From positions 1,229,870 to 1,293,869 of the forward strand of contig NC_020055.1 in NCBI RefSeq assembly GCF_000331025.1: a stretch of 64,000 bases of DNA, given 5' to 3'. The stretch comes from Maridesulfovibrio hydrothermalis AM13 = DSM 14728 (GTDB taxonomy: Bacteria; Desulfobacterota; Desulfovibrionia; Desulfovibrionales; Desulfovibrionaceae). Shown here one piece after another: positions 10,201 through 57,525 of this stretch; the first letter of the stretch is position 1; every line of letters begins with the position of its first letter. The notes beneath the pieces are model-generated. The model was not told the DNA's origin. It did no database searches and was given only the letters and a program-made list of their open reading frames with translations. A program made the position numbers and the translations under genes.

Positions 10201-11718
10201 ATGATTCGTACTTCAGATCAGAATAGTTTTTCAGAAAAAACTTCAGAACCATTGCTTGTTGCTGGAATTTTCATTTTTGCGATTGTTGTAAGGCTTATCT
10301 CGCTGGAATACATTGAGATAGGCGGGGACTCATTATGTGTATGGGAAAATACCGTCAATCTGGTCAATGCCGGACACTACTTCGAATGGAATCATCATAC
10401 CATGCGTTGGGCTATCAACATGCCCTTGTATTTAATACTTGAATTATTCGGTACTTCTTCCCTTAATTATTATATTTTGCCCATCTGTTATTCAGCTTTA
10501 TCGGCCGTACTCGCTTATTATGTTGGTAAACAGCTTAAAGGGAGGCGGTTTGGACTCTTTGTTGCTGTGCTGCTGGTCCTTTATCCAAAGATGACCACAA
10601 TGGGCAGTCAGCTATGGCCCGGTCTCTATGAAATGACCTATTTGCTGGGCTGTACTCTTGCTTTGCTTATCTGGCGGAAAAATGGAGGCTGGCAGCTTCT
10701 TGCTCTGGCCGGTGTTTTGGCCGGGTGCGCTTGGGGGTCACGTCTTACAAGCATATATTATGGACCGGGAATTCTGGCTCTTCTGGTGCTGGGGAAAAGA
10801 AAATTCAAGCCTGTCTTTATTTTTTCCGCATTTTTCTTTTTGGTTCTCGGGCTGGAATGGTATTATTTCTATAGCGACAGTGGAAATATACTTGGCCGTT
10901 TCGGTATTATCACCCAGACTCATGTGGCACAGGATGAACTTCTGGTCAGCACCGGACAATATCTGCTTAATTTTTTGAAAATGGTTAAGTTCAGGGGGCT
11001 TCTGCCGGTGGTGCTTGCTGCTGCAGGTGTTGGAATCTGGCTGGTCCGGCGGGGCGGTGACGATGAAAAGTGTATCGCCATTTTGTTTTTGGGAGGACTG
11101 TTTTTTAATGTATATATGATATCCAGCTTTTCGCCGCTTAAACTGGCTGCCCCTGTTGGCAGCAGGTATCTAACAGCTGCTGCTCCCTATATGGTGATAA
11201 TACTGCTGCTCGGCCTTGACCTCTGGCGGGAGAAATCTCCGAGAGCTGCCGCCTTTTTTAAATGGGGGCTTATTATTGCCTTTGCAGCATTCACACTTAA
11301 GGAAGTTCCTGCTCAGCATACTCTTTCTCGTTTGCAGGAGGATATAAGCAACGCGCGTACAGTCTCTGATAGTAATATTCCGGTACTCATGCGCTACACT
11401 GCATGGACACCGAACGGAATAGAAAAGACTGTTATGGAATTGTTCGGCGTTGAAAAGCAGGGGCGGTTGAAGATAAATGAAGATACGAAAATGCTTAAGA
11501 ATGCGCGCAGAATGAGGATAATGCTTTTTGGACAATCTACTGATAAAGAGTACAAACCTGAATCCATAGACGGTTACTATTATTTATACAAAGGTGATCG
11601 CAAATCGCTGGCGGAATTTCCTTTGGTCGGAGTTTCTGACTATAGCCGTAAAGGGCATAAGCTGGTGATTGTTCCCGCCGAGTCTTTGCCGCAAGAAATA
11701 CTTCGAGGTGAAAAATAG
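10201..11718 (+). CDS. GT-C type membrane glycosyltransferase (GT39/GT83-like)
   Basis: A 505-residue polytopic membrane protein with about ten hydrophobic segments. An acidic residue pair region lies soon after the first helix (EYIEIGGDSLCVWEN), as in GT-C enzymes that use polyprenyl-phosphate sugars outside the membrane. The C-terminal part (from about 385) is soluble. It is the first gene of a plus-strand set and overlaps or abuts the GT2 gene (stop 11718, next ATG 11720). With a GT2 and GtrA behind it, the trio resembles systems that make a polyprenyl-P-sugar, flip it and transfer it. Substrate unknown. Confidence 0.8.
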   Translation: MIRTSDQNSFSEKTSEPLLVAGIFIFAIVVRLISLEYIEIGGDSLCVWENTVNLVNAGHYFEWNHHTMRWAINMPLYLILELFGTSSLNYYILPICYSALSAVLAYYVGKQLKGRRFGLFVAVLLVLYPKMTTMGSQLWPGLYEMTYLLGCTLALLIWRKNGGWQLLALAGVLAGCAWGSRLTSIYYGPGILALLVLGKRKFKPVFIFSAFFFLVLGLEWYYFYSDSGNILGRFGIITQTHVAQDELLVSTGQYLLNFLKMVKFRGLLPVVLAAAGVGIWLVRRGGDDEKCIAILFLGGLFFNVYMISSFSPLKLAAPVGSRYLTAAAPYMVIILLLGLDLWREKSPRAAAFFKWGLIIAFAAFTLKEVPAQHTLSRLQEDISNARTVSDSNIPVLMRYTAWTPNGIEKTVMELFGVEKQGRLKINEDTKMLKNARRMRIMLFGQSTDKEYKPESIDGYYYLYKGDRKSLAEFPLVGVSDYSRKGHKLVIVPAESLPQEILRGEK

Positions 11719-11719
11719 T

Positions 11720-12676
11720 ATGAAAACAGCAGTATTAATACCCTGTCTCAATGAAGAAGAGGCTATCACAAATGTTGTGCGGGATTTTGCCGCACAGCTG
11801 CCCGGTGCTGATATATATGTTTATGATAACGGTTCAACTGACAGAACCATAGAAGTTGCCAGAGCCGCCGGTGCAATTGTTTCCTATGAGTCTCGTAAAG
11901 GCAAAGGAAACGTGGTCAGCCGTATGTTTGCTGATATTGATGCAGATATTTATGTACTGGTGGACGGGGATGACACTTATGATGCCACAGCTGCCCCGGA
12001 AATGGTCGAGAAGCTCTTAAATGAAAATCTGGACATGGTTGTGGGTATACGTGACCATAAAGATGAAGATGAAGCCTATCGGTCCGGGCATCAGACGGGC
12101 AATGCTGTATTCAATAAATTTCTGGGTGTCATTTTTGAGAAAACATTTACCGATATTTTTTCCGGCTACCGGATTTTTTCAAAGCGGTTTGTAAAGACTT
12201 TCCCCTGTCTGAGCCGCGGTTTTGAGATCGAGATGGAAATGAGCATTCATTCCATCGCCGCCCGTCTTCCTGTTGCCGAGGTAGTCACTACTTATGGCAA
12301 GAGGCCCGAGGGAAGTCACAGTAAGCTCAATACCTATCGTGATGGAATGCGTATCCTTATGACTATGGTTCATCTGTTCAGGCACATTTCCCCTCTAAAG
12401 TTCTATGCCGGTGTTGCCGGACTTTTGGCTTTGTTCTCTTTTTGTCTCGGTCTTCCGGTTATCACCGAATGGATGCAGACCGGACTTGTGCCCAAGCTGC
12501 CTACTGCTGTTCTTGCGGCATCTGTCGGGATAATTTCCTGCCTTTTCTTTGCCATCGGGATTATCCTGAACAGTGTCAGCAGGGGGCATATGGAAATGCG
12601 CAGACTTGTGTATCTGAATTTTCCCTCCATGGCTGCGTGCAGACGGGATGAATGTGAAAATGTTGAAAAGGAGTAG
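11720..12676 (+). CDS. Family 2 glycosyltransferase with C-terminal membrane helices (polyprenyl-phosphate sugar synthase type)
   Basis: A 318-residue protein. The GT-A domain begins AVLIPCLNEEEAI and carries DNGSTDRT and the metal-binding DGDDTYDA motif (about residue 88). Two hydrophobic helices (about 230-300) follow, like undecaprenyl-/dolichyl-phosphate sugar synthases. Such enzymes load a nucleotide sugar onto a polyprenyl phosphate at the inner face of the membrane. The ATG at 11720, one base after the previous stop, is preferred to an upstream in-frame codon at 11669. The downstream GtrA gene fits as flippase for the product. Confidence 0.87.
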   Translation: MKTAVLIPCLNEEEAITNVVRDFAAQLPGADIYVYDNGSTDRTIEVARAAGAIVSYESRKGKGNVVSRMFADIDADIYVLVDGDDTYDATAAPEMVEKLLNENLDMVVGIRDHKDEDEAYRSGHQTGNAVFNKFLGVIFEKTFTDIFSGYRIFSKRFVKTFPCLSRGFEIEMEMSIHSIAARLPVAEVVTTYGKRPEGSHSKLNTYRDGMRILMTMVHLFRHISPLKFYAGVAGLLALFSFCLGLPVITEWMQTGLVPKLPTAVLAASVGIISCLFFAIGIILNSVSRGHMEMRRLVYLNFPSMAACRRDECENVEKE

Positions 12677-12684
12677 CGGTTGAA

Positions 12685-13062
12685 GTGTTAAGTAAAAGCA
12701 GGTTTTTGCGCTTTTGCTGCATAGGCGGTCTGGGCTTTATCATTGATACCGGCATTACTTACGGGCTGGTCTGGATAGGCATGTCATCACTTACCGCGAG
12801 GATTCCGGCAATTCTGGTGGCCTTGACCATCTGCTATCACTACCATCACGGGTTCACTTTCCGCAAAACAGGTAAGGCTCCGTGGAAGGGGTGGTATAAA
12901 TTTGCACTTTCAAACGCCGCAGGCAGCTTAATCAATTACGGGGCTTACGCCGCAGTTCTTTTCTTTTACCCTTCCGCGCCGTTGATAATTCCGCTGATTG
13001 CCGGTTCAGGGGTAGCAATGGTGGCAAATTACATAATGTCAGCTTGTTACGTGTTTCGCTAA
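12685..13062 (+). CDS. GtrA-like membrane protein
   Basis: A 125-residue, four-helix membrane protein of the GtrA family (opening RFLRFCCIGGLGFIIDTG, ending in a Cys-Tyr-Val-Phe-Arg motif). GtrA proteins are thought to flip polyprenyl-phosphate sugars. The start codon is GTG at 12685, eight bases after the GT2 stop, with GGAG upstream in the end of that gene. Its position straight behind a polyprenyl-phosphate sugar synthase supports the role. Confidence 0.87.
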   Translation: MLSKSRFLRFCCIGGLGFIIDTGITYGLVWIGMSSLTARIPAILVALTICYHYHHGFTFRKTGKAPWKGWYKFALSNAAGSLINYGAYAAVLFFYPSAPLIIPLIAGSGVAMVANYIMSACYVFR

Positions 13063-13212
13063 CCGGTAAAATGAATTTGTGATTCATCAGTTAAATGCGC
13101 TTTCTGGACTTTATGCATGCTGTATGCTTATTTGCCCTCAATCAAGGCATTCTGTCGTTGAACGTAAGACAGCTTATAGCTGTTTGAATCGATAAAGTGA
13201 GCTTTTATTAAA

Positions 13213-14247
13213 GTGAAAGATATATCCGCTATCAAACCAAAACGGATTCTGGTCTGTCAGCTTCGTCAGATCGGCGATGTTGTTCTATCCACGCCCTCGG
13301 TGGCTCTTCTTCATAAAAAATTTCCTGATGCTGAAATTCATGTGCTGACCGAAGGCAAGTGTGCTCAGGTTTTTGATAATAATCCAGCTGTCAGCCATGT
13401 CTGGTCTATTGTGAAAAAAGAGCTTGGTAATCCATTTAAGGCTCTGGCTTTTTATCGTAAAGTCGGTCGCTCCGGCTATGACCTTGTCGTTGATTTTCAG
13501 CAGTTGCCCCGTTGTCGCTGGGTGATGCTGTTTTGCGATGCACCCGTTAAACTTTCCTATAATCCGCCGTGGTATAATCGCTTTCTGTATACCAACTGGC
13601 CGGAGCATATCCCCGGGGGATACGCTGCTAAATATAAAGCTGGAGTGCTAAAGCCGCTAGGCATTGAGTGGAACGGCGAGCGGCCAGAGATTTATATCAG
13701 CGATACAGAACGTGAAGAAGCGCAAAGTTGCCTGAAGTCGCTTGGAGTTACGGATAATGAACCGTTGATTACGGTCGATCCCTCTCACCGCAGACATACC
13801 CGCAGATGGCCTGCGGAGCATTATGGAAAGCTTTTACAGCTGATCTCCAGCGAGCGGCCGGAGTTTAAATTTTTCCTTCTTTACGGTCCGGGCGAAAAAG
13901 ATGTCGTCCTGAAAGTCAAAGAGGTTTCGGGGCTGGGCGATAAGTGTGTGATGCTCGAAAAATCAGGTTCATTGAGACTTATGGCCGCACTTATTGAAAG
14001 AGCGGTGCTGCATCTCGGCAATTGTTCTGCTCCCCGTCATTTTGCGGTCGGTGTGGGAACACCCAGTATTACGCCGCCCGGTTCCTCCAGCAGTGCCTGG
14101 ACATTTCCGTCACCAGAGCATGAAGAGGTTGTGCCTGATCTGGACTGCCAGCCCTGCGGCAGTGAAAGCTGTGCAAGGGGAGACTTGGCCTGTTTGCAGA
14201 ATTTGACGCCTGAAGAGGTGCTTTTGAGGGTTTTAGATAAAGTGTAA
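13213..14247 (+). CDS. Family 9 glycosyltransferase (heptosyltransferase-like)
   Basis: A 344-residue GT-B enzyme. Its start (RILVCQLRQIGDVVLSTP) and its nucleotide-binding half (VDPSHRRHTRRWP, later LGNCSAPRHFAVGVGTP) are typical of ADP-heptose:LPS heptosyltransferases. The start is GTG. The C-terminus has four Cys residues (CQPCGSESCARGDLAC) seen in many GT9 members. It probably adds heptose or a related sugar to a core or glycan; acceptor unknown. A 150-base gap separates it from gtrA. Confidence 0.87.
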   Translation: MKDISAIKPKRILVCQLRQIGDVVLSTPSVALLHKKFPDAEIHVLTEGKCAQVFDNNPAVSHVWSIVKKELGNPFKALAFYRKVGRSGYDLVVDFQQLPRCRWVMLFCDAPVKLSYNPPWYNRFLYTNWPEHIPGGYAAKYKAGVLKPLGIEWNGERPEIYISDTEREEAQSCLKSLGVTDNEPLITVDPSHRRHTRRWPAEHYGKLLQLISSERPEFKFFLLYGPGEKDVVLKVKEVSGLGDKCVMLEKSGSLRLMAALIERAVLHLGNCSAPRHFAVGVGTPSITPPGSSSSAWTFPSPEHEEVVPDLDCQPCGSESCARGDLACLQNLTPEEVLLRVLDKV

Positions 14248-14342
14248 ACCTGCTACAAGGGTTAATCTTTTGCTCAGGGATGGCTGGAGTCTTTTGTTTT
14301 CAATTCGCAATAAGTCCAAAAAGCAGGGAATGTAGAAAATAT

Positions 14343-14795
14343 ATGGTTTACGACTTTATAGTGAACCGAATCTTTAAAGGGATTTGGTATCAATTGAAAT
14401 GGGGAGCTGTCAGCTTTACCGATCCCATTTTATACCTGTTTTTTTCATTCGGGCTTATTGGGCTGTACGTTCCCGGTCCAGATATAAAGCTGTCTTTGGG
14501 CTGGTTGTTTTTAAAAGCTTTTTTTGAGGAACTTTTTTTCAGGTTTCTGCTGCAGGAAGGGTTCGACAGGTTATTTTCTTATAAGTGGAGACTGGGACCG
14601 CTTAGTCTGGCCAATGTGTTGGCATCATTGATTTTTTCGTGTATGCATTTAGCCAGTCAACCTGTGCTCTGGGCGTTATTGACTTTTGTCCCATCATTAG
14701 CCTTTGGTTATATCTGGCAAAGATATCGCAGTGTTATCCCCGGTACGCTTGTTCACTTTGCTTACAATTCTTTTTTGTTTTATCAGTTTATGTGA
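14343..14795 (+). CDS. CPBP-family glutamic-type intramembrane protease, possible C-terminal-signal sorting enzyme
   Basis: About 150 residues, four to five membrane helices. All CPBP/Abi catalytic motifs are present: EE(62-63)xxxR67, FxxxH (His 102) and HxxxN (His 138, Asn 142). These proteases cut within the membrane; the bacterial subfamilies linked to MYXO-CTERM, JDVT-CTERM and Synerg-CTERM signals are compact proteins of this size. A protein with such a tail is encoded at 20815-22779 in the same gene run, which points to it as substrate. I chose the ATG at 14343, where membrane-protein character starts; an in-frame ATG at 14280 would add 21 residues. Which CTERM subfamily it belongs to cannot be settled by eye. 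Confidence 0.8.
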   Translation: MVYDFIVNRIFKGIWYQLKWGAVSFTDPILYLFFSFGLIGLYVPGPDIKLSLGWLFLKAFFEELFFRFLLQEGFDRLFSYKWRLGPLSLANVLASLIFSCMHLASQPVLWALLTFVPSLAFGYIWQRYRSVIPGTLVHFAYNSFLFYQFM

Positions 14796-14976
14796 TCTGC
14801 ACTGCCAAGGGCAGCTCTGCTTGACGGATTTTTGCAAGTGTAGGATGCTGAAGCATTATTGAGTGCTTAAATCGATCATATGGAAAAAGTTCTCCATGCA
14901 TAAGGTGCAGAGCTTTTTTTCTTACCTGAAATTAATTTTTGCCGTATTTTTTTCGGCGGAGTTCACGAATTTGAAT

Positions 14977-16995
14977 ATGCTTAAGACATTGAATAAAATA
15001 TTAGTCGCGATGGTGCTAACTTTAGTTGTCCTGACGTCAGGGGCAATGGCTCAGCCGGAAGGCGGGGATGATGTTCATGCCAATCTGGAAAGCATCTCTT
15101 TAGTAGAGTTTATTAAATTCGTAGGCCGTTACACTGGACGCAATATCGTTTTTAATAAAGGATCTCTGCCCGGGACTCACGTCAGTATTTATGCCGGGCA
15201 ATCCTTGAGTGAGCCGGAACTGATGGCTGTTTTTCAGGAAGTTCTCGGTGGCGCAGGGTTTTACGCTGTAACACGTGATAATGTTACCTATGTTCTTCCT
15301 CTTCGGGAAGCTCAAAAAATTTCTCCTGTAATTAAATCCTCGCCGTCATCTGGAGCTGGGGAGGAAATGATTACCTCTATTTTTCAATTAAATGAGGAAA
15401 TGTCTGCTGAAAGAGTGGCCGCAATTTTGAAGCCTTTTGCTTCAAGGGTTGGTCAGGTTACAGCTGTCCCTATGGCAAGCTCTGTGCTGGTCAGAGATTT
15501 ACAGTCAAATGTTTCAAAGATGAAAAAGCTGCTTGCAATAGTTAAGAAAGCGGGCGGGACTCAAGAGACAGCAATTATTGAGCTGGAAAAGACCAATGCA
15601 AAGTCAGTGAAAAGCAAACTTGCTTCATTTTATAAAAAAATGTCCGCTGCCGGCAAAACGGGTACACCGCCCATCATCGAATCAATTGAGTGGGCTAATA
15701 ATTTGCTGATATCCGGTTCTAAGGATCAAGTCAGGACTATTAAGCAGCTTGTTTCCAAACTTGATAAGTCTAATGATTCCTTTTCTGCTCTTAAGGTGTA
15801 CAGACTACATAATATTGAGGCCACTGTCGCAGGCGATGTGCTTAAAAGTTTGATTTCAGGAGGTGGGCTACCCTCTTCCGCCGGGGGAAAGTCTACTGAT
15901 GGGGCAGGAGGCAAATCCAGTAAGTTAGGCTCTTCTGCCAGTTCAAGTTTATCCTCTTACGGGGATGACTCAGACGTTAAGGTTTCAGCAGACGCAAGCA
16001 CAAATACTCTGATTGTAATGGCACCCACTGATCAGATTTCTCAGATTGATAAATTTGTGAACCAGCTGGATCAGGCGCAGGATCAGGTTTATATTGAGGC
16101 CCTTGTTCTAGAGACTACGCTTGATAACGCGAAGGAGTTCGGGGTTGAGTGGCAAGGCGGATTTAAAATGGGAGGAAGTGTCGCAACTCTTGGATTTACA
16201 AAGGTGAAGGACAGTAATCTTCCCGCTTATGGTGCCAACCCTTCCGCTATGCCCGGTGGATATTCCATGGGAGTCCTCGGCGATACTATTTCATATGCCG
16301 GGAAGAGTTTTCCAACAATCGGGGCACTTGTTAACTTTTCTAAATCCGCTACTGATTTTAACCTCATCTCTGCACCGCAGATTATGACCATTGATAATTC
16401 TGAAGCTGAAATTTTTGTCGGTGATAAAATACCATATAAAACAGGTGATAAAAGTTCCGCTGGCGGTGATTCTATCGTTGCGACATATGAGTATAAAGAT
16501 GTTGGTATCAAGCTGAAGGTTAAACCTCACATCAACCGTGAAGAGGGACTGGTCAGGCTTGAACTTTATCAAACTTATAATACGGTTAAAGATGCTGGAG
16601 CCGCAACGGGGCTTCCCACCACAAGTGATCGCGTCACAAAGACCACCGTTCTCATGGCTGATGGTTCGACAATGGTTATCGGCGGCCTGATTGAATCCAG
16701 GCAAGACCGGGGGCAAGGTGCTGTTCCTTATCTTTCAGACCTTCCACTCCTTGGCTGGCTTTTTAAAAGTCAGACAAGAAGCGGTTCAAAGAAAACTCTG
16801 ATGGTTTTTCTTTCCGCCCGCATAATTCAGACAACGGAGCAGCTAGAGGCTCTCAGCAAAGCTAAGATGGATAGATACAGAAATCAGCGTTCCCGTTTTG
16901 ATAGTTTTATTGACAAAGAATTTAACACATACAAGAACAAAGACAGTAAAAAAGCTGAAGATGCAGATGTTTCTTCAACCATGTCTGACAGTTAA
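14977..16995 (+). CDS. gspD: Type II secretion system secretin GspD
   Basis: A 672-residue outer-membrane secretin. A signal peptide ends after AMA (about residue 25). It is followed by the N0 domain (HANLESISLVEFIKFVGRYTG), N1-N3 modules with a Gly/Ser-rich insert (about 290-320), and the secretin core with KLKVKPHI and the terminal VPYLSDLPLLGWLFKS motif. GspD forms the outer-membrane channel for folded periplasmic proteins. An in-frame start 38 codons upstream (14863) would give an odd, longer leader, so the ATG at 14977 is preferred. gspE follows after 12 bases; no other gsp gene is in the window, so the remaining parts must be elsewhere. Confidence 0.9.
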   Translation: MLKTLNKILVAMVLTLVVLTSGAMAQPEGGDDVHANLESISLVEFIKFVGRYTGRNIVFNKGSLPGTHVSIYAGQSLSEPELMAVFQEVLGGAGFYAVTRDNVTYVLPLREAQKISPVIKSSPSSGAGEEMITSIFQLNEEMSAERVAAILKPFASRVGQVTAVPMASSVLVRDLQSNVSKMKKLLAIVKKAGGTQETAIIELEKTNAKSVKSKLASFYKKMSAAGKTGTPPIIESIEWANNLLISGSKDQVRTIKQLVSKLDKSNDSFSALKVYRLHNIEATVAGDVLKSLISGGGLPSSAGGKSTDGAGGKSSKLGSSASSSLSSYGDDSDVKVSADASTNTLIVMAPTDQISQIDKFVNQLDQAQDQVYIEALVLETTLDNAKEFGVEWQGGFKMGGSVATLGFTKVKDSNLPAYGANPSAMPGGYSMGVLGDTISYAGKSFPTIGALVNFSKSATDFNLISAPQIMTIDNSEAEIFVGDKIPYKTGDKSSAGGDSIVATYEYKDVGIKLKVKPHINREEGLVRLELYQTYNTVKDAGAATGLPTTSDRVTKTTVLMADGSTMVIGGLIESRQDRGQGAVPYLSDLPLLGWLFKSQTRSGSKKTLMVFLSARIIQTTEQLEALSKAKMDRYRNQRSRFDSFIDKEFNTYKNKDSKKAEDADVSSTMSDS

Positions 16996-17007
16996 CAGGT
17001 TTATAAA

Positions 17008-18489
17008 TTGAGTAAATCTTATGATTTGAACCTCGTTCCGCGCGAAGTGGTGGATATGTTTTTGACTTTCCCTCAACGCAGTGAATTCATACCTGTTGAA
17101 GTTGGCGAGAAAGAAATCAAAATACTTCTTCAAAATGAAAGTTCCTTACCTATGGCTGACTTTCTTGCCTGGAAGATTGGGAAGAAAGTTAAAACAGAAG
17201 TTGTTGATGAGGAATTTTTTTTCCCGCTTCTTGAGCAGGCACTTACCGTCTGGGAAGAGGAAAGCGCGCTTGAATCTGATTCCGATGAGGAAGACAGTGA
17301 AGACGGGCAGGATCTTTTGGGCTGGTCACATGATGATGCGCCGATTGTTCGTTTAGTTAACAAAACTTTGCATCAGGCTATTTCTACCGGCGCAAGTGAT
17401 GTTCATTTTGAGGGGCAAGGAAACGGGTTTGTTGTCCGTTATCGTCAGGACGGCGTCTTAAAGGCTGTTAAAAGATTAGACAAAGGGTTACATCCTACGG
17501 TCATCGCACGTATTAAAGTTATGGGCGAGATGGACGTGGCAGAAAGCCGTAAACCGCAGGATGGCCGAATTTTTCTTAAACTAGGGCAGAAAGAAGTTGA
17601 TGTCCGTGTTTCCACCATTCCCACCATGAACGGTGAGAAGGCTGTGCTGCGTATTCTGGACAGATCGAAAAACATTTTGAATTTAGAAGATCTCGGCCTT
17701 AAGGGTCAAGATCTTGCGCTTTTTAGGAAGGTTCTCGCCCAGCCGCATGGAATTGTGTTGGTAACAGGGCCTACAGGATCTGGTAAAACAACCAGTTTAT
17801 ATGCCGGTCTTAGTGAACTGCCGCGTGATGATAAAAATATTGTTACTGTAGAAGATCCTGTTGAATATCAGCTTTCCGGAATCAATCAGGTTCAGGTAAA
17901 TAAAGCGGCAGGAATGACTTTTGCCACAACAATTCGATCATTTCTCAGGCAGGACCCTGATATTATTCTGGTTGGTGAGATTCGAGATCAGGAAACTGCC
18001 AGCACCGCTGTTCAAGCTTCTCTCACCGGCCACCTTGTGCTTTCAACCCTGCACACTAATGATGCCGCAACTGCTGTAACCCGTATGCTTGATATGGGGA
18101 TCGAACCGTTTCTTTTGGCCTCCTCCTTATCGTTGGTATTGGGGCAGAGACTTGTGCGTGTCAATTGCAGGCATTGCAGCAGAGAGGTTGAGGTTTCTGA
18201 AAATACGTACAAACTTTTCGATGACCGAGAAGATCTTCCAGCTCGTCAGACAGTTGGCGCAGGATGTGAGCATTGTAACTTCACGGGGTTTAGCGGCCGG
18301 CGTGGAGTCTATGAGCTTATACCCGTAACTGAAGATATGCGCGGTTTAATAATGGACGCTGTTTCTTCTGACACTATCAAAGCCTACGCAAAAAAAATGG
18401 GCCGTGAAACTATGGTTGACCATGGAATAAGACTTGTTCAGGAAGGAGTTACTACGCTTGAAGAGGTTGTCAGGGTAACCAAGCTTTGA
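17008..18489 (+). CDS. gspE: Type II secretion ATPase GspE
   Basis: A 493-residue cytoplasmic ATPase driving pseudopilus assembly for type II secretion. It shows an N-terminal MshE-like/GspE N domain and a Walker A GPTGSGKT (254-261). It also shows an Asp box, Walker B with ILVGEIRD, a His box (HLVLSTLHTND) and the zinc-binding tetracysteine (CRHC...CEHC) near residue 388. The start is TTG at 17008, 12 bases after gspD, with AGG upstream. It could in principle be a PilB, but coupling to gspD and the length favour GspE. Confidence 0.9.
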   Translation: MSKSYDLNLVPREVVDMFLTFPQRSEFIPVEVGEKEIKILLQNESSLPMADFLAWKIGKKVKTEVVDEEFFFPLLEQALTVWEEESALESDSDEEDSEDGQDLLGWSHDDAPIVRLVNKTLHQAISTGASDVHFEGQGNGFVVRYRQDGVLKAVKRLDKGLHPTVIARIKVMGEMDVAESRKPQDGRIFLKLGQKEVDVRVSTIPTMNGEKAVLRILDRSKNILNLEDLGLKGQDLALFRKVLAQPHGIVLVTGPTGSGKTTSLYAGLSELPRDDKNIVTVEDPVEYQLSGINQVQVNKAAGMTFATTIRSFLRQDPDIILVGEIRDQETASTAVQASLTGHLVLSTLHTNDAATAVTRMLDMGIEPFLLASSLSLVLGQRLVRVNCRHCSREVEVSENTYKLFDDREDLPARQTVGAGCEHCNFTGFSGRRGVYELIPVTEDMRGLIMDAVSSDTIKAYAKKMGRETMVDHGIRLVQEGVTTLEEVVRVTKL

Positions 18490-18555
18490 TTTCATTTTAT
18501 TTCAATTCCTAAAACTAATTCATCTACAATATCAATTATCGGAGTATACTTCGTC

Positions 18556-20688
18556 ATGAGGCAGGAATTTCAAAAACCAGCATGGATGAATGACTGGAAA
18601 GTCTTTGTTTTATTTGCGGTAATATCGTTTACTTTTGCCTTTGGGCTTAGGTGTGTGGATCTGCCCAAGTGGGATAACCCTGCATTTATGGTACACGGCG
18701 AGTACATCATGGGGACACATGATGCCTACTACTGGCTGGCAGGGGCAAAAGGGGTGGGGAGTGCTGTCGACAATCCTATGTCGACGTTAGTCCGTTTTCT
18801 TGGTGGTATCAGTGGCTTTCAGTATGGTAATATAGCTTTTTGGTTGCCTGCGGTCTTTGCAGGGTTATGTGCTGCTACTGCATTTGCATGGGGAATGCTC
18901 GTTGCCGGCCCCTGGGTCGGCCTTGTCAGTGCTGTTTATGCTACTTCGATTCCAGCATTCTACTTCAGAACCAGACTTTCGTATTATGATACTGATCTTG
19001 TGACCCTGTTTTTCCCTTTGTTGATATCTCTGCTGCTTGCTAGATGGGTCAGTCTTGGCATTAGAGGTTCATGGATTCCTCAAAAAGCAGGCGAAGCGGG
19101 TAAAGTCGGCAAGGCCGACTTTACGCCGACAGTCTGGGATATGTCTTTGCCGATCATTGCAGGGTGTATAACATCGTATGGTAAGCTTTGGCATAGTGAT
19201 GTATTGACTTTTGGTATAGGTGCTTCTGTTCTTGCAGTTTTTTTGGTTTTTGTCTGCGGGACAAAGTTAACTAAACCATTCTTATTAAGAGGGGTCTTCC
19301 TTTTCTCTCTCTCTGCTTTTTTTGGGTTTTATGGGTTTTTGGCTGCATTGATATCGCTATATATTTTTTTATTTGTCCCAAGTCTTAAGGGGAATAAGTA
19401 TTATAACAATGCGTATGTTTATTTGGGATTGTTCGCTTTAATCCTATTGGTGAGCGGCCTTGGTCAGGGGCTGATTCAGGTTATCTCTGGTAAAATATTT
19501 GCATACCTTAAGCCTGTTGCTTCTGGTTCATTAGCCGGTTCCGGGCCGAAGTATCCCGGAATTGCTCAAAGCGTTATTGAAGCACAGAATTTAAGTTTTG
19601 ATGTCTTTTTCGCGAATCTTACCGGGAGTTCATTTCTCGGGTGGCTAGGCTTTCTTTGCTTTGGCTATGCTTTGCTTGTTAGTCCAACTCTTATCTTTAT
19701 TGCCCCGTTTGCTGCTGTTACTTTTGCTGCGATTTATATGGGGGGCCGTTTTTCCATGTTCGGGGGAATCGCTCTCGGGATAGGGCTAAGTTTTACACTG
19801 CGTTTTTTATTAATTAAGTATTTCAACCATTCAAAATATAAATATTATCTTGGTGGTATCCAAGCTGCTGTCATTGTTTTCCTATTATTTTCCAATATAT
19901 TTGCTGGGTATAAAGCAGCCCCTCCGACTCCGATTATGTCTTCTGCTCATGTTAAGGCTTTAGTTGAATCTGGTAAAGTTATGGACAAAGACAGCACGGT
20001 CTGGACTTGGTGGGACTGGGGCTATGCTACTATGTACTATGCGGGAGTTAATTCTTTTGCCAACGGCGGGCATCATGGTGGTCAGGTTTTGTATCCTCTG
20101 GGATTTGTTTATTCTACACCATCCTTTCTGCAGGCAAATCAGTTGATTAAATTCAGCGCTGCAAATGGAAATAATCCAGCCGCTGTCTGGAATAAGATGC
20201 CAGTTGACGATGTGTTGCAGATGTTAGGTTCCTTTAGTTCTATTAAGTATGAATTTCCTAAAATTCCTAAGCAGTACATCGTGGTAAGTTGGGAGAATAT
20301 TCGTCTTGCATATTGGATTTTATATTATGGTTCTTGGAATTTGAAAACTGGAATTGGGATACATCCTATGGTCCAACCTGTTGCCACAGCATTTAGTTTA
20401 AATCCTGAAAAAGGGTTGATGTTGGTCGAAGGGCAAAATCCACTTAGTTTGTCAGGCTATGAATTGTTTAAATCTGATATGAAAGTAAGTAGGCGATTTG
20501 CCAATTCCGTAGGACCTAACTTGGTATATGATCAGACAAAAAGTGAAGGCTTTCTTGTAGATGAATATGTGTATATGAGTATGTTGACTCAACTTCTTGT
20601 GTGTGATCCTTCTAATCCTATTGTCAGTAAGCATTTCAAACTGGTGTATGAAGGGTTACCTCAAGTTAGAATATATGAGGTTTTGTAA
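18556..20688 (+). CDS. STT3/PglB-type oligosaccharyltransferase
   Basis: A 710-residue membrane enzyme that transfers a preassembled lipid-linked glycan en bloc to Asn in N-X-S/T on the outer face of the cytoplasmic membrane. About 12 helices are followed by a soluble domain. Key residues: Asp 56 in GTHDAYYW, the DxD pair Asp 145/147 in RLSYYDTDL, the external-loop Glu 342 (SVIEAQN) and the WWDWG motif at 485-489 (Campylobacter WWDYG). Twelve residues after Glu 342, where C. lari PglB has Arg 331, I find Asn 354, suggesting no need for an acidic -2 residue. The next gene encodes a protein packed with sequons. It sits 66 bases behind gspE. Confidence 0.92.
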   Translation: MRQEFQKPAWMNDWKVFVLFAVISFTFAFGLRCVDLPKWDNPAFMVHGEYIMGTHDAYYWLAGAKGVGSAVDNPMSTLVRFLGGISGFQYGNIAFWLPAVFAGLCAATAFAWGMLVAGPWVGLVSAVYATSIPAFYFRTRLSYYDTDLVTLFFPLLISLLLARWVSLGIRGSWIPQKAGEAGKVGKADFTPTVWDMSLPIIAGCITSYGKLWHSDVLTFGIGASVLAVFLVFVCGTKLTKPFLLRGVFLFSLSAFFGFYGFLAALISLYIFLFVPSLKGNKYYNNAYVYLGLFALILLVSGLGQGLIQVISGKIFAYLKPVASGSLAGSGPKYPGIAQSVIEAQNLSFDVFFANLTGSSFLGWLGFLCFGYALLVSPTLIFIAPFAAVTFAAIYMGGRFSMFGGIALGIGLSFTLRFLLIKYFNHSKYKYYLGGIQAAVIVFLLFSNIFAGYKAAPPTPIMSSAHVKALVESGKVMDKDSTVWTWWDWGYATMYYAGVNSFANGGHHGGQVLYPLGFVYSTPSFLQANQLIKFSAANGNNPAAVWNKMPVDDVLQMLGSFSSIKYEFPKIPKQYIVVSWENIRLAYWILYYGSWNLKTGIGIHPMVQPVATAFSLNPEKGLMLVEGQNPLSLSGYELFKSDMKVSRRFANSVGPNLVYDQTKSEGFLVDEYVYMSMLTQLLVCDPSNPIVSKHFKLVYEGLPQVRIYEVL

Positions 20689-20703
20689 TATCGTTCTTAT
20701 TAA

Positions 20704-20734
20704 TTGCTTGCATTTTTAACAGCATGAAGATAAT
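20704..20734 (+). promoter_or_regulatory. Possible sigma-70 promoter for the sequon-rich protein gene
   Basis: A GATAAT -10-like hexamer lies at 20729-20734, with TTGCTT (spacing 19) or TTGCAT (spacing 15) upstream. Neither spacing is ideal. A separate promoter is plausible, since the gene has its own strong terminator and probably encodes an abundant surface protein. Confidence 0.3.
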
Positions 20735-20814
20735 GTTTTCAAAATGCATTATACCAAATGAGTGTGGTGCTCTTTTGGGGTGTGTAACTAACCTAAAGCA
20801 TGGAGAGTTTTTTT

Positions 20815-22779
20815 ATGAAAAAACTTATTAGTGTTTTTACAGTATTGCTCGTGCTGGCCGCTTCCAGCGTTTTCGCAGCAGTAACCGCAGAGTTTCCTGC
20901 ATTCTTTAACCAGACTCTTGGCACAACTTACGCTAAAGAAAATGGTACACAACTGTACTTTACAGGTTTTGGGGTTAACGCAACAGCTGGTGTTGCTGCA
21001 GGCCAATCAATCGGCAAAGTCCAGTTTTATTCTTCAAACAGAACTGCTACCAATAAAAGTGAAGTTTTTCTGATCAACGCAACAGGTGTTGATGGTGGAG
21101 CTTTTAACGGTACATTAAATTACTACAATGGTACAATTAAGCAGCAGAAATCTTGGGATAATGGTACTGGAACCATAAGTTTCAATAGTAAGTTTGGTAA
21201 TGTTGCCGGGCTGACCCAAGTGAGTTCCAACTCAACTTTAAACGGAACTCAATACTATGTACCTGCAGGTAACTACCAGATGATGGTGGGTATCGTTAAT
21301 GCGACTATCAACGCTACATCTGGAAAGAGACGTGTAGGGGAGCCTGGTTTTGGTGTCTCCCTTAGTATGATTTACCAGAATGGTACATTTAAAAATATCG
21401 CAAGTTCTTCTGATACATGGGACTACTATGCTTATGGTCAGAGAAAAGGCTACCCAGTAGTTATTTTTGGACAGGTTAAAATTACAGCTCTCAGCGGCGC
21501 AAGCAAAGCTAGCGTGAAGTACTACCTCTACAATGGTACTGATAAAACAGACAAGACCTCTTCCTGGATTGCATACAATGCAACTGGTCTCGAAAAGAAT
21601 AACAATGGTGGATCCCTTGCTCTGACCAGAAATGGTGGTCTGACTCTTTTTGACAACTCAACAATTAATACTGACGGAAACATGGTTACTGGCTACGTAC
21701 GTTCTGGTTCCCAGAGACTTTTCGCAGTGATGGTAAAGAGTGCTTCTAACATCTCTGCTAATGATGTTAAAAATCGCGCTTTTAATATGGTTTACACTGG
21801 TTCCGGTACTGCAACTAAGGGAAATCTTGGTAATGCTACTGCAGGTATCCTCCAGTTTAACGTTGACAACTCTTTTGGTCTTCAGGGTAACAGCCGAGCA
21901 ATTACTTCAGGCAGCAATCGGATGACTGCTGCTAATCAGGGGCTTGGTGGCTACTCCGTTGCTGTTGCTGACACAAATCAGTTCAAATTGTCTCAGTCAA
22001 ATATGACAATTTATCAGGGTGATGGTAAAACAGTTGCTGGTTACTTTATTGGTAAACAGTCTGCTGACAAAGTATTCTCTGTTGGTATATACGAAACCGT
22101 TGATGGTGGTGCAACTCACCGCTCTCTCGCTTTCTTGATTCCTACTGTTGCGGTTACTTCTGCAATCCAGAGCACTGGTGCTGGATATCAGAACAACGCC
22201 ACTGTTAGTGTTACTAACCTGACTGCTAACTCTACAGCGTACAGTCAGATCTCACTTAGAGCTCGCTGGTCCGGCATTCCTTCCAACTTTACTCCTTTGA
22301 CAAGTGTTAAAGGCTACTCTGCCACTGCTGGTTCTAAGCAGAAGGGTGACTTTTATTACTCAACTCAGTTCGAAATGACTGGTGTTGGTGGTCGGGTTGA
22401 CTCACTCCGTTTGTATAAAGTGATGCCAGATTCCACAACTGTACGTGCTTTCTCTTACGCTGGAGCACCTACTCCTGCTGTTGAAGGTTCCTGGTGGATT
22501 TCTCAGTCAACTGCTGATGGTTACCTGAATGATCAGTCCGTACTTGATCCTACTAAAGATTACTTTGTTAACTGGGTAGTTAAAGATAATGGTAGCTATG
22601 ATTCAAACGCTACTGCTCTCGGTATTGTTGACCCCGTTGTCCTCGGTAGCGTGCCTACGTCCTCTTCCTCCAGCTCTTCCGGTTGTGTATTCAACCCCGC
22701 AGCTGGCTTCGGTCTGGAATGGCTGCTTCTGATGCTCGCTCCTATGGTTGCTGTTGTTCGTAGCCGCTTCAAAAAATAA
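20815..22779 (+). CDS. Exported, sequon-dense surface protein with a CTERM-type sorting tail
   Basis: A 654-residue protein of no family I recognise. Signal peptide 1-21 (cut after VFA). The mature part is rich in Asn, Gly, Ser, Thr and Tyr and holds 26 N-X-S/T sequons by hand count, 13 of them between residues 32 and 166; 23 end in Thr. Only one (DSNAT, near the end) has an acidic -2 residue. The tail is tripartite: seven Ser, Gly-Cys 624, Phe-Asn-Pro, a hydrophobic helix (about 632-648), then R-S-R-F-K-K. This matches the layout of glutamic-protease sorting signals. GGAGAG seven bases ahead fixes the ATG at 20815, not 20800. Likely substrate of the adjacent oligosaccharyltransferase and of the CPBP protease. 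Confidence 0.88.
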   Translation: MKKLISVFTVLLVLAASSVFAAVTAEFPAFFNQTLGTTYAKENGTQLYFTGFGVNATAGVAAGQSIGKVQFYSSNRTATNKSEVFLINATGVDGGAFNGTLNYYNGTIKQQKSWDNGTGTISFNSKFGNVAGLTQVSSNSTLNGTQYYVPAGNYQMMVGIVNATINATSGKRRVGEPGFGVSLSMIYQNGTFKNIASSSDTWDYYAYGQRKGYPVVIFGQVKITALSGASKASVKYYLYNGTDKTDKTSSWIAYNATGLEKNNNGGSLALTRNGGLTLFDNSTINTDGNMVTGYVRSGSQRLFAVMVKSASNISANDVKNRAFNMVYTGSGTATKGNLGNATAGILQFNVDNSFGLQGNSRAITSGSNRMTAANQGLGGYSVAVADTNQFKLSQSNMTIYQGDGKTVAGYFIGKQSADKVFSVGIYETVDGGATHRSLAFLIPTVAVTSAIQSTGAGYQNNATVSVTNLTANSTAYSQISLRARWSGIPSNFTPLTSVKGYSATAGSKQKGDFYYSTQFEMTGVGGRVDSLRLYKVMPDSTTVRAFSYAGAPTPAVEGSWWISQSTADGYLNDQSVLDPTKDYFVNWVVKDNGSYDSNATALGIVDPVVLGSVPTSSSSSSSGCVFNPAAGFGLEWLLLMLAPMVAVVRSRFKK

Positions 22780-22832: not shown

Positions 22833-22867
22833 AGGGAGCCGACTTTTTAGTCGGCTCCCTTTTTTTG
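22833..22867 (+). terminator. Strong Rho-independent terminator after the surface-protein gene
   Basis: AGGGAGCCGACT and AGTCGGCTCCCT form a perfect 12-bp stem with a TTTT loop, followed by seven T. It closes the plus-strand gene run. Confidence 0.95.
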
Positions 22868-23074: not shown

Positions 23075-23341
23075 ATGCGGAAATCTAGATTCAGTGAAAG
23101 CCAGATCATCAAGATCCTGAGAGAGGCTGAAGGCGGTCGCAAGGTCGCTGAGGTATGCCGTGAGTATCAAGTCAGTCAGGCCACATATTATAAGTGGAAA
23201 GCAAAATACGGTGGAATGGAAGCCTCTGATATCCGTCGTCTTAAAGAACTTGAGGACGAGAACCGTAAGCTGAAAAATATGTTTGCCAACCTAAGCCTTG
23301 AAAATGAAGCCCTGAAGGACGTCATAGCAAAAAAGCTTTAA
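23075..23341 (+). CDS. IS3-family transposase OrfA (helix-turn-helix)
   Basis: An 88-residue HTH protein ([20 protein letters not shown], then a leucine-zipper-like end) with the usual IS3 OrfA length. It ends at A6G (23329-23335), where the heptamer A-AAA-AAG is a classical -1 slippery site, four bases before its stop. The ribosome site AGGAGG lies upstream. Slipping into frame -1 gives the OrfAB transposase. Confidence 0.92.
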
Positions 23342-24186
23342 AGCCAACTGAGAAACGTGAGCTTGTTGACTATCTTCGTGACGAGTTTTGTCTCAGCATC
23401 CGGCGGGCTTGTGACGCACTGCACTTAAGTCGTTCAGTTTATTGCTATAAGCCTAACCCGCGAGACGATTCCGTAATTATTGAAGTGCTACTCAAGTTGG
23501 CTGACCGCTATCCTCGTTACGGTTTCAGAAAGTTGTTCATTCTGTTGCGCAAGCAAGGACACCGCTGGAACCATAAAAGGGTTTATCGGGTTTACTGCAT
23601 GTTAAAAATGAACTTCCGTCGTAAAGGTAAGAAACGGCTTCCAACCCGAAATAAGAAAACATTAGCAGTTCCTCCGAGAGCCAATGTGTGCTGGTCGATT
23701 GATTTTATGCACGACTCGCTTGTGGGTGGACAGCGATTCAGAACTTTTAACGTGCTTGATGATTTCAGCCGAGAATGCTTGGCGATTGAAATCGACACAA
23801 GTCTTCCCGCAGTACGGGTAACTCGTGTACTGGACAGAATTTCAGCTTGGCGCGGTTTTCCTGAAAAAAAGAGGATGGATAATGGACCGGAGTTAATCTC
23901 TGTAACTTTGGCTGACTGGGCCGAAAGAAATGGTGTCGTACTGGAATTTATTCAACCTGGTAAGCCAACCCAAAACTCGTATGTTGAACGTTTCAATAAA
24001 ACTTTTCGGAATGAAGTATTAGATTTTTATCTGTTTTCAACCTTAACCGAGGTCAAGGACATTACTGAAGACTGGATTCGTGAATACAATGAAGAACGAC
24101 CACATGAGTCGCTCGGTGACATGACTCCTGTTGAATATGTCCAAACACATTCACCACAAGAAAACTCTACTTTTGGATGGCACTAA
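23335..24186 (+). CDS. IS3-family transposase OrfB (DDE integrase domain)
   Basis: The frame is open from the slippery site at 23329-23335 and reads [18 protein letters not shown] onward; an ATG/GTG-type start inside (about 23485) would cut the HTH_21 region, so production by -1 frameshifting is more likely. DDE residues: first Asp in WSIDFMHD, second Asp in MDNGPE, Glu in [14 protein letters not shown]. The end is intact, so the element may be active. Confidence 0.9.
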
Positions 24187-48436: not shown

Positions 48437-49477
48437 TTAGTTGATGTCATTCCAGGTGATTGGGAAATCGAATTTAATGTCGCATTTTAATTTTCTGCCA
48501 ACCAGATATTTAGCTTCAACTGGCTTGATTCCAGTTCCCGGTCTTTTGAAAGCAAAGTGTTTTTCTTTGAGAATGGTTCCGGCAGTAAGAGGGGTTGAAG
48601 CTACAATACTGCGGTGAAATCCGCTGCGCATTTCGACTTCTCGGGGAGAGAGGGTCTTTGATTTATGTCCTATAGCAATTTGGATTTCATTAGAATATTG
48701 GACAATTTGTGTCATCTCTTCCGGGGTTGCGGAAACGGCATGGTCCCAACCTTCCATATTGTGGTCAAGGGTAAAGTGCTTTTCGATTACACTTGCACCC
48801 AGAGCAATGGATGCCAAAGGCATGTGAATGCCGATTGAGTGATCGGAAAAGCCGCATGGTACTCCGAATGTCTCATTTAGGTATGGGATTGTTTTCAGGT
48901 TAACTTCGCTTGCTTCCGGAGGGTATAACGAGACACAATGTAGAAGAATAATATCATTATTTCCTTTGCTTCGGATAGTTTCAATTGCGGCTTCAATTTC
49001 AGATAGTTTAGCCATGCCAGTGGAAACAACCATAGGTTTTCTTTTTTCAGCCATGTACCCGATAAGTTGCAGATAGGTGAGATCCCCAGAGGCTACTTTG
49101 AAGAAAGGGACATCCAGCTCCGCGAGCATATCAACCTCATCGAAGCTGAAAGGTGTAGAGCAAAAATCTACATTGAATTCCTGACATATTTTTTTTAATT
49201 CTTTGTGCTGACTTTGATTAAGAGAGTACTTCTTAACTTGGTCCTTTATTTTCTGAATTTCTTTTTCAGTTCCACATTCCTGAAAGCAGGCTTCTGAATC
49301 AACTGAGGTCAAGGTCCATGATTGGAATTTTACAGCATCACAGCCGCACTTGCTGGCTTCGGAAATGAGTTTTCTGGCCAGTTTCATGTCTCCGTTATGG
49401 TTAGCTCCTATTTCAGCGATGATGTAGGGTTTGCAAAATTGGGAAATTTTTTTTTCAGGAGTAATGTATATCTGCAT
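48437..49477 (-). CDS. N-acylneuraminate/legionaminate synthase (NeuB/LegI family)
   Basis: A 346-residue enzyme that condenses PEP with an N-acyl-mannosamine-type sugar to a nine-carbon nonulosonic acid. NeuB signatures: IAEIGANHNGD at the start, KFQSWT, FSDHSIG in the barrel, and a C-terminal SAF/antifreeze-like domain from about 285 (SGFHRSIVA). GAGAGG upstream fixes the ATG at 49477, 11 bases after the GT2 stop. Confidence 0.9.
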   Translation of the reverse strand: MQIYITPEKKISQFCKPYIIAEIGANHNGDMKLARKLISEASKCGCDAVKFQSWTLTSVDSEACFQECGTEKEIQKIKDQVKKYSLNQSQHKELKKICQEFNVDFCSTPFSFDEVDMLAELDVPFFKVASGDLTYLQLIGYMAEKRKPMVVSTGMAKLSEIEAAIETIRSKGNNDIILLHCVSLYPPEASEVNLKTIPYLNETFGVPCGFSDHSIGIHMPLASIALGASVIEKHFTLDHNMEGWDHAVSATPEEMTQIVQYSNEIQIAIGHKSKTLSPREVEMRSGFHRSIVASTPLTAGTILKEKHFAFKRPGTGIKPVEAKYLVGRKLKCDIKFDFPITWNDIN

Positions 49478-49488
49478 TGTTATCCTCT

Positions 49489-50346
49489 CTAGAATATTTC
49501 TTCCCACCAAAGTGGGTAGTTTATGTTGTTTTGTTTGACTCTTTCAAAGTACTTTTTAAAGAAATCCGGATCTTGAATTTCTTTTTCTCTTTTTTTGAAA
49601 TGGGCATATTGTTTTAAAAATAGAGGCTGTATTTTGTTTAGCTCTTCTAACACAACCTTTTTAGCTGTGATGCCACGCAAAATGTACGCTTCAGAAATTT
49701 TGCCTAATCCTGCAGCGTTTTTTTGATGCTGTCGGTACAGTGTCTCGGTGTCATTTGTAAATATCGCCTTAAAATCTTTGGCAAGCATACTTGCAAAAAG
49801 ATGCCAGTCGGTTGCAACAGTATCTTCCCGAACCGAGAAATTTTCATCAATACATTCAGTTCTTATGGAAGTATTGGATAGTCCGAAGATATTTTTGTCC
49901 AAAATAAATTCAAGCCTAATATTGGTGTTATTTTGTAAACGGTTTGAAAACCATTTTCTGCATGAGAAACCCTTTTCATCAAAAAGGCTGACATCGTTGA
50001 CTACGATATCATTTTTTTTAAGATAATCACGGGCCACAGCAATGCGGTTTTCCTTGAAAAAGTCATCAGCGTCACCCAATATAATATATTGATAGCCAGC
50101 TTTTTTAAGTTTTACCAAAGCTTTTTCTCTTATTTTTTCAGGAGAACCTGAAACTTTAAACTCTTTCCAATTTAAAAAAGTGAAATCGTTCATATAAGAA
50201 GAAATATTTTGCATCCCATCATTCACGAAGGTTATGTCAAAATTTTTATATGTCTGTTTTTCAAGACTTCTGGCAAAGTCATTAAAATACAGTTCTGCTC
50301 CAGGATAGAATACAGTAAAAAAAGCTGTTTGCTGGGGGTTATTCAT
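49489..50346 (-). CDS. Family 2-like glycosyltransferase
   Basis: A 285-residue GT-A-fold protein; ILGDADDFF is the Asp-rich donor site (about residue 86) and KTYKNFDITFVNDG precedes it. It is likely to transfer a sugar in the glycan. Start overlaps the preceding gene by eight bases. Confidence 0.8.
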   Translation of the reverse strand: MNNPQQTAFFTVFYPGAELYFNDFARSLEKQTYKNFDITFVNDGMQNISSYMNDFTFLNWKEFKVSGSPEKIREKALVKLKKAGYQYIILGDADDFFKENRIAVARDYLKKNDIVVNDVSLFDEKGFSCRKWFSNRLQNNTNIRLEFILDKNIFGLSNTSIRTECIDENFSVREDTVATDWHLFASMLAKDFKAIFTNDTETLYRQHQKNAAGLGKISEAYILRGITAKKVVLEELNKIQPLFLKQYAHFKKREKEIQDPDFFKKYFERVKQNNINYPLWWEEIF

Positions 50347-50980
50347 TTTTTCTTATGGGTTTTGCAGGGCATCCGTATGCGATAGTGTTGTCCTCTATAT
50401 CTTTAGTGACAACGGCTCCATCGCCGATGATGCAGTTGTTGCCTATGTTTACTTTAAATCCGATAGTCGCACCATCAGAAATAATTGTATCACTACCGAT
50501 AGTTCTACCTGCTAAGTTAACACCCCCTGCAATTAGTGTATTGTCTCCCACTGTTTGGTCATGGTTGATGGCAGTAAACGAATTCAGGATGCAGTGATCC
50601 CCCATGCTCACTCCGTTGGCAATCTTGGTGTATGCTTCAATAATATTGCCACTCCCGATTGTACTGTGAGTCGAAATCTCGGTGTTGGGGTGGATAATAT
50701 TAACAGTGTTTAGGTACTGATCGTAATAAGCGGCTAATTCACGTCTTACTTTTAAGTTGCCTACCCCTAAAAAATAAAAGTCAATATTATACTTTTCAAT
50801 TAATTTGGGAATATCCGAGTCCAGTCCAACAACTTTATAGCCGTACTTTGATAGCCCTATGTCAGAAGGTTGATGAGAGGTCATACCGGCTATTTTGAAT
50901 TTATTTTGTGCTTCAATATTGTCAATAACCATGCCAGCATGTTCGCCACATCCGACAAGTATAATTCTTTTTTTATTCAT
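50339..50980 (-). CDS. NeuD/PglD-family sugar acyltransferase (LegH candidate)
   Basis: A 213-residue protein: Rossmann-like N-terminus (ILVGCGEHAGMV) and a hexapeptide-repeat C-terminus with GCPAK at the end. PglD-type enzymes N-acetylate a UDP-4-amino sugar; in legionaminate synthesis LegH does the corresponding step. Location between LegF and a glycosyltransferase supports that. Confidence 0.87.
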   Translation of the reverse strand: MNKKRIILVGCGEHAGMVIDNIEAQNKFKIAGMTSHQPSDIGLSKYGYKVVGLDSDIPKLIEKYNIDFYFLGVGNLKVRRELAAYYDQYLNTVNIIHPNTEISTHSTIGSGNIIEAYTKIANGVSMGDHCILNSFTAINHDQTVGDNTLIAGGVNLAGRTIGSDTIISDGATIGFKVNIGNNCIIGDGAVVTKDIEDNTIAYGCPAKPIRKNE

Positions 50981-51671: not shown

Positions 51672-51676
51672 AGCTG

Positions 51677-52846: not shown

Positions 52847-52849
52847 ATC

Positions 52850-53848: not shown

Positions 53849-53867
53849 ATTAATCTCCTTGAAAGTT

Positions 53868-55370: not shown

Positions 55371-55381
55371 TTTCCTACTCC

Positions 55382-56278: not shown

Positions 56279-56302
56279 GGTATTCCCCTGTTTTCCGATT
56301 TG

Positions 56303-57514: not shown

Positions 57515-57525
57515 AACAAGCCTCT

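Follow-up and report, generated by a model that had tools for sequence, protein, structure and literature searches.

Within a 64,000-nucleotide stretch of the 3.71 Mb genome of Maridesulfovibrio hydrothermalis AM13 (the window, G000:C2:1229870-1293869), the gene for an STT3/PglB-type oligosaccharyltransferase (OST in what follows) is followed by the gene for an exported protein, here called GLP, which is crowded with N-X-S/T sequons. Judged by its sequence, GLP is in all likelihood a protein selected as a substrate for N-glycosylation. What would such a protein do in a desulfovibrio? The explanation that we favour, with moderate confidence, is that GLP is a type-II-secreted, hyper-N-glycosylated surface coat protein, processed by an MrtJ-type protease and working like the S-layer glycoproteins of archaea. 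The observations behind it are an intact OST, selected N-X-T sites, conserved gene linkage, a sorting tail together with a protease, and codon bias of the high-expression kind; from the families present we infer glycan transfer and occupancy, tail processing, the secretion route and the coat architecture.

The initial annotation had pointed to an exported protein of 654 residues with 26 sequons, 126 bases from the OST gene, and these coordinates and counts proved right: GLP starts at ATG 20815, preceded by GGAGAG, with the OST stop 126 bases upstream, and its start looks, by eye, like a signal peptide. Shuffling gives 10.2 expected N-X-S/T motifs against the 26 present (z 5.8). The excess resides in N-X-T, with 23 found vs 4.7 expected (z 9.4), while N-X-S stands at 3 vs 5.5, and it is sharpest for N-A/G/S-T (18 vs 1.5; z 13.8). 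As control motifs, the reversed S/T-X-N and the stretched N-X-X-S/T occur 10 and 7 times. Shuffles and motif controls thus reject a compositional artefact as the source of the sequons, and internal repeats are rejected as well, since none appear when GLP is compared with itself. The 15 aligned orthologues behave alike, with N-X-T at 257 vs 85.8 (sd 9.1) and N-X-S at 73 vs 68.6, and A, G or S occupies the +1 position in 56% of their sequons vs 27% at other Asn (column-weighted). All 16 GLP sequences tested have an excess of sequons (z 2.2-5.8); 15 belong to the genus, one of them a fragment from genome G014, and the last comes from G039, in another genus. The G014 fragment is included in the shuffles and in the comparisons of sequon conservation and codons, and omitted from the 15-orthologue alignment, the identity range, the -2 counts and the structural model. 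That only N-X-T is raised points to OST preference and selection, not to a general richness in Asn, Ser and Thr.

The sites are also maintained. Across aligned pairs an Asn that belongs to a sequon remains Asn in 63% of cases, vs 30% for Asn elsewhere (mean identity 41%); three alignment columns carry a sequon in 16/16 sequences and three more in 15/16. Species differ in many of their sequon positions and the number of sequons stays high, in orthologues that share 31-59% identity with the window protein. Their distribution is uneven, at 3.85 per 100 amino acids before residue 495 vs 1.14 per 100 in the C-terminal part.

Is the neighbouring enzyme equipped to use these sites? OST scores 62.2 bits with Pfam STT3-PglB_core (cut-off 23) and 31.2 bits with STT3 (cut-off 24.5). 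The catalytic residues of Campylobacter lari PglB are D56, D154 and E319. D56, the D145/D147 pair (DTD) and E342 of OST align with acidic residues of this enzyme (5ogl), a WWDWG motif lies at residues 485-489, and all of these are invariant among the 12 OSTs aligned. The earlier description of an STT3/PglB-type enzyme with its catalytic acidic residues and WWDWG is therefore upheld. OST reaches 78.4 of the 1300 bits of the NCBIfam ProtGlycPglB equivalog, so it is an OST by its domains and lies outside that equivalog, and no enzyme of the GT41 (HMW1C) type is indicated, all Pfam matches of OST at E up to 0.1 being STT3-type. The gene is thus intact, and its product is predicted to transfer glycan to N-X-S/T.

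How specific to GLP is the sequon excess? Our sample of the genome covers 864 kb (the window plus 800 kb; 23% of the genome) with 601 longest-ORF genes, among which GLP alone stands out, first by far. The remaining 600 hold 459 N-X-T vs 447 expected and 101 N-A/G/S-T vs 102, and in the first sample the 52 proteins that a crude home-made rule picks as exported-like hold 110 sequons vs 119.9 expected. Small N-A/G/S-T surpluses in the genome's other protein with the sorting tail (5 vs 1.2 expected) and in a 1082-residue, membrane-anchored-looking protein (L046:7998-11246; 5 vs 0.6, second after GLP in the sample) may mark minor clients. That the tail causes the sequons is rejected: of 27 ORFs that match the tail model, 26 of them at the C-terminus, 25 are without sequon excess. 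One of the 27 is from G038, a genome of another genus, and the others were drawn from a portion of the 67 tail places, 15 of which are GLPs. Summed, the 25 unenriched ORFs hold 106 N-X-T vs 111 expected and 83 N-X-S vs 124 (L068 and L097 omitted from this sum). The two enriched ones are the GLP relative of G038, which lies beside a type II secretion operon and has 28 sequons vs 12.9, and a protein of G012 with a GH64 (beta-1,3-glucanase) match (L097:605-2602; sequons 19 vs 9.3, N-X-T 14 vs 4.9), which is likely a second OST client. Near the OST of G038, a C10-peptidase-like exported protein of 1014 residues (L068:10-3054) has 39 sequons vs 17.2, N-X-T and N-X-S both being raised.

Codon usage offers a view on the amount of GLP made. 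Against a reference of 16 genes for ribosomal proteins and EF-G (mean 0.710; one found by Pfam, 15 recognised by eye), the codon adaptation index of GLP is 0.703, a value exceeded by 7 of 224 sampled genes; 210 of the 224 score above OST, all 224 above MrtJ and 175 above the genome's other tail protein. With the own-genome codon weights, applied to all species, GLP is the highest of the six block genes in 14/14 other genus loci (0.681-0.815 vs at most 0.630). This ribosomal-like bias, unlike that of the neighbours, suggests a major, abundant coat protein, the high abundance being predicted from codon bias only.

OST and GLP close a plus-strand series of genes at 10201-22779, laid out as follows.

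10201-11718, plus strand: PMT_2-type GT-C glycosyltransferase (Pfam PF13231; present in 8/15 loci)
11669-12676, plus strand: GT2 glycosyltransferase resembling AglJ (TIGR04182 211.8 bits, below cut-off 325; 7/15 loci)
12685-13062, plus strand: GtrA/DPMS-type membrane protein (Pfam PF04138; 8/15 loci)
13213-14247, plus strand: GT9 glycosyltransferase (Pfam PF01075; in the block in 15/15 loci)
14280-14795, plus strand: MrtJ-type glutamic intramembrane protease (NCBIfam NF033192 80.8 bits, cut-off 75)
14863-16995, plus strand: GspD secretin, type II secretion (TIGR02517 439.3 bits, cut-off 351.35)
17008-18489, plus strand: GspE-like secretion ATPase (best match TIGR02533 564.5 bits, under cut-off 630.25; Pfam T2SSE 460.5 bits)
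18556-20688, plus strand: OST, STT3/PglB-type single-subunit N-oligosaccharyltransferase, 710 aa (Pfam; alignment to 5ogl)
20815-22779, plus strand: GLP, hyper-sequon exported protein, 654 aa, all-beta model (26 N-X-S/T, 23 of them N-X-T)
20815-22299, plus strand: GLP sequon-rich region, residues 1-495 (304/332 sequons of 15 orthologues precede residue 495)
22300-22659, plus strand: GLP C-terminal domain, sequon-poor (many further genus proteins match it)
22660-22776, plus strand: GLP sorting tail with Ser-rich linker, GCVFNPAA motif, hydrophobic helix and basic end (resembles JDVT-CTERM/Synerg-CTERM, under both cut-offs)
22833-22860, plus strand: terminator-like hairpin 3' of GLP (12 pairs, 8 GC, T-run)

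The order GT9-MrtJ-GspD-GspE-OST-GLP is kept in 15/17 genus genomes, the own genome included, which has a single OST match. Homologues with sequons lost and the two genes unlinked would, by the initial annotation, refute the idea; within the genus this comparison did not refute it. Full-length GLP was found within the family only, in searches of 247 family genomes and of 98 genomes up to the order, and a contig scan with two tail peptide patterns confirmed 6 loci, all Desulfovibrio sp. or Desulfovibrionales. In two of 20 OST regions compared, those of G038 (L068:7356-12435) and G039 (L069:8868-15857), both from other genera, OST directly follows gspF (T2SSF) of a type II secretion operon; these operons hold T2SSF and PDZ-domain genes, and that of G039 also T2SSM. 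The comparison stops within L074 and resumes within L079, and where genomes are GC-rich the longest-ORF approach used in it calls genes poorly. The C-terminal domain is more widespread than the whole protein: G005 (L089:551-18765) has 10 GLP matches, mostly to this domain, two of them inside one open frame of 1762 aa.

How might these components work together? GLP would be exported from the cytoplasm by Sec, and in the periplasm the neighbouring OST would transfer lipid-carried glycans to many of its N-X-T sites, for which massive occupancy would be expected. MrtJ would then process the GC-tail, probably once the Cys carries a lipid, and type II secretion, to which two genes of the block belong, would place GLP on the cell surface as a very abundant, sugar-covered, S-layer-like coat. 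Of the proteins required, the MrtJ protease of the JDVT-CTERM/MrtJ pair and the GspD secretin both score above their cut-offs, and the GCVFNPAA motif is invariant in 9 aligned tails. The initial annotation had taken the pairing of OST and GLP with a tail, a sorting-type protease and type II secretion genes for a system that is not known to be described; these components are indeed present, and tail and protease come close to the JDVT-CTERM/MrtJ and myxosortase systems. It is in Myxococcus that cleavage and surface anchoring by myxosortase, and the involvement of type II secretion in the case of MYXO-CTERM proteins, are described, and the support given for MrtJ is comparative genomics (PMC11980579). 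The same paper defines the JDVT-CTERM/MrtJ pair by a neighbourhood of two genes, MrtJ and one tail protein; this arrangement was not found here, as GspD, GspE and OST intervene. A stronger version of the proposal is that the locus makes the bacterial version of an archaeal S-layer, with one dominant outer-membrane-anchored coat protein, about twenty OST-made N-glycans, and a block of OST, MrtJ and type II secretion that integrates glycosylation into the secretion line; this we put forward tentatively, as possible rather than probable.

A number of observations weigh against the coat protein proposed here. The AlphaFold model of GLP (pLDDT 72.3, pTM 0.78) is all-beta plus N- and C-terminal helices, and its comparison with PDB folds returned no S-layer relative and no convincing fold relative; weak AttH/TbpB/fHbp-like beta matches have target-side TM-scores of at most 0.48 among the best 50 matches. 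The GLP tail reaches 13.1 bits with the JDVT-CTERM model, under the cut-off of 27. GLP and OST of G039 are unlinked, on different contigs, and this GLP has a low codon index (0.543, own-genome weights). In G014, one of the 15 genomes with the kept order, a stop near the N-terminus breaks GLP into two ORFs (L039:13031-13139). G002 has OST and MrtJ and lacks GLP. In G011 (L067:10543-14223), OST is followed by a 1226-aa protein with the same tail, a codon index of 0.824 and 13 sequons vs 12.7 expected; it is possible that one coat protein was replaced by another in the slot behind OST. With OST present and GLP missing in G002 and G011, OST does not need GLP. The last point concerns the acceptor rule. 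Acidic residues at -2 are rare, at 11/332 sequons in the 15 orthologues (genus 10/307; G038 1/28, G039 1/25), and this rarity counts in favour of the coat protein reading, as Desulfovibrio PglBs with relaxed -2 rules are known (PMC4894442); what failed is a structural cue for it. R331 of PglB reads the acidic -2 residue, and its position is occupied by Asn in 8 of the ten genus OSTs aligned and by Gln and Asp in the others. Loss of R331 as the cause is rejected, because G038 and G039 keep Arg and their sequons are equally without acidic -2. If R331 set the rule, acidic -2 residues would be predicted in these two genomes; none are favoured, and the lack of an acidic residue therefore belongs to the substrates and is not derivable from the R331 position.

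Could the motifs be structural, a beta-turn or fold constraint on an unglycosylated protein? We regard this as very improbable. GLP is all-beta in its model and rich in Asn and Thr, and N-G-T and N-A-T are turn-like; against this, N-X-S is unraised, S/T-X-N and N-X-X-S/T fall far below N-X-S/T, GLP has no internal repeat, most tail-bearing ORFs are unenriched (25/27), and sequon positions turn over with the number staying high. Bacterial N-oligosaccharyltransferases are, to our knowledge, mostly known as general systems, with clients that carry few sites each. GLP might accordingly be one abundant, sparsely occupied client of a general PglB-type system, adjoining OST by chance, an account that we consider unlikely. 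It is in keeping with the reach of OST, matched in 68/98 related genomes (own and genus included) vs 25/98 for any GLP match, many of these to the C-terminal domain only, as it is with the OSTs of G002 and G011, the second N-X-T-rich tail protein in G012 and the existence of known PglB enzymes in Desulfovibrio (PMC4894442). If sites were selected in a general system, however, many exported proteins should have raised sequons, and the 52 exported-like ones show no rise; moreover, linkage and sequon excess are kept jointly in 15/17 genus genomes though GLP identity to the window protein drops to 36%.

The same facts bear on the claim, made in the initial annotation, that GLP is the dedicated substrate of OST. 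The substrate part stands, on the N-X-T-only excess and the linkage in 15/17; 'dedicated' is unsupported, given the far wider occurrence of OST, the two genomes with OST and no GLP and the N-X-T-rich GH64-like protein, and GLP is better called the main hyper-substrate of OST. A different alternative accepts the glycans, as protective, and makes GLP an adhesin or enzyme instead of a coat former, which seems to us only somewhat unlikely. It would suit the fast evolution of GLP, the lack of an S-layer-like match in the fold comparison and the GH64-like nature of the other tail protein with many N-X-T, and it sits badly with ribosomal-level codon bias and a fixed genome place across the genus. No enzyme family was found either: Pfam gave 0 matches for the window GLP and one weak FlgD_ig match in 1/15 orthologues, NCBIfam gave no family, and a sequence-profile search of the PDB gave 0 matches at E up to 1.

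How does this putative coat system compare with known ones? With PglB of C. jejuni and C. lari and the Desulfovibrio PglBs (PMC4894442), OST shares the Pfam STT3 and core domains, the catalytic acidic residues and WWDxG; unlike in those systems, it is encoded beside secretion genes and a hyper-sequon protein, lies far from the NCBIfam PglB equivalog, and has a presumed substrate in which no acidic -2 rule is visible. In E. coli assays, Desulfovibrio PglBs have been shown to use N-X-T sites that lack an acidic residue at -2 (relaxed -2 rules; PMC4894442). Archaeal S-layer glycoproteins (PMC2952790), with AglB and archaeosortase, resemble GLP as many-sequon surface proteins with an STT3-type enzyme and a C-terminal sorting tail, and one with 31 predicted sites has been described (PMC2948927). 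The present system differs in being bacterial, in having a GC-tail and a CPBP/MrtJ protease instead of archaeosortase, and in the predicted type II secretion across the outer membrane. HMW1/HMW1C (PMC3983070) likewise places an N-glycosylating enzyme beside one multi-sequon surface protein; HMW1C, in contrast to OST, is a cytoplasmic GT41 enzyme that adds hexoses without a lipid carrier, and HMW1 uses two-partner secretion (PMC3983070). JDVT-CTERM/MrtJ and MYXO-CTERM/myxosortase (PMC11980579) share with our locus the MrtJ protease and a tail in which an invariant Cys is combined with a helix and a basic end, and type II secretion is described for MYXO-CTERM in the same paper. Relative to JDVT-CTERM/MrtJ, the GLP tail falls under the cut-off, each genus genome has 1-8 tail matches, and the protease is separated from its substrate by GspD, GspE and OST. 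In PMC11980579 the word 'glycosyl' occurs 0 times, and a literature search of titles and abstract starts, mostly of non-subscription journals, gave among the matches listed no paper describing the combination of OST, MrtJ, type II secretion and a sequon protein. The closest known systems are the archaeal S-layer glycoproteins in working and HMW1/HMW1C in gene arrangement; the parts are known, and the combination looks like a new form of surface-protein N-glycosylation.

An N-X-T-filled, locus-linked and apparently highly expressed protein amounts to an in-genome record of OST preference (Thr, a small +1 residue, no acidic -2), and such an acceptor rule is of interest to glycoengineers seeking OSTs without the -2 acidic requirement. 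The locus is a natural test bed for asking what leads a bacterium to hyperglycosylate a single protein, and it is a candidate link of N-glycosylation, myxosortase-type sorting and type II secretion. In GLP, bacteria may have their own counterpart to the sugar-coated shells known from archaea.

The block is immediately followed by an IS3-family transposase (region 23075-24186), in which 23485-24186 scores above the NCBIfam cut-off and a small ORF at 23075 was recognised by eye. Further along the window, on the minus strand at 48437-59232, are nonulosonic-acid/legionaminic-type sugar genes, with LegB and LegC above their cut-offs and a NeuB-like gene and a PglK-like ABC transporter below; these could supply sugars for the lipid-linked glycan or for a different glycoconjugate.

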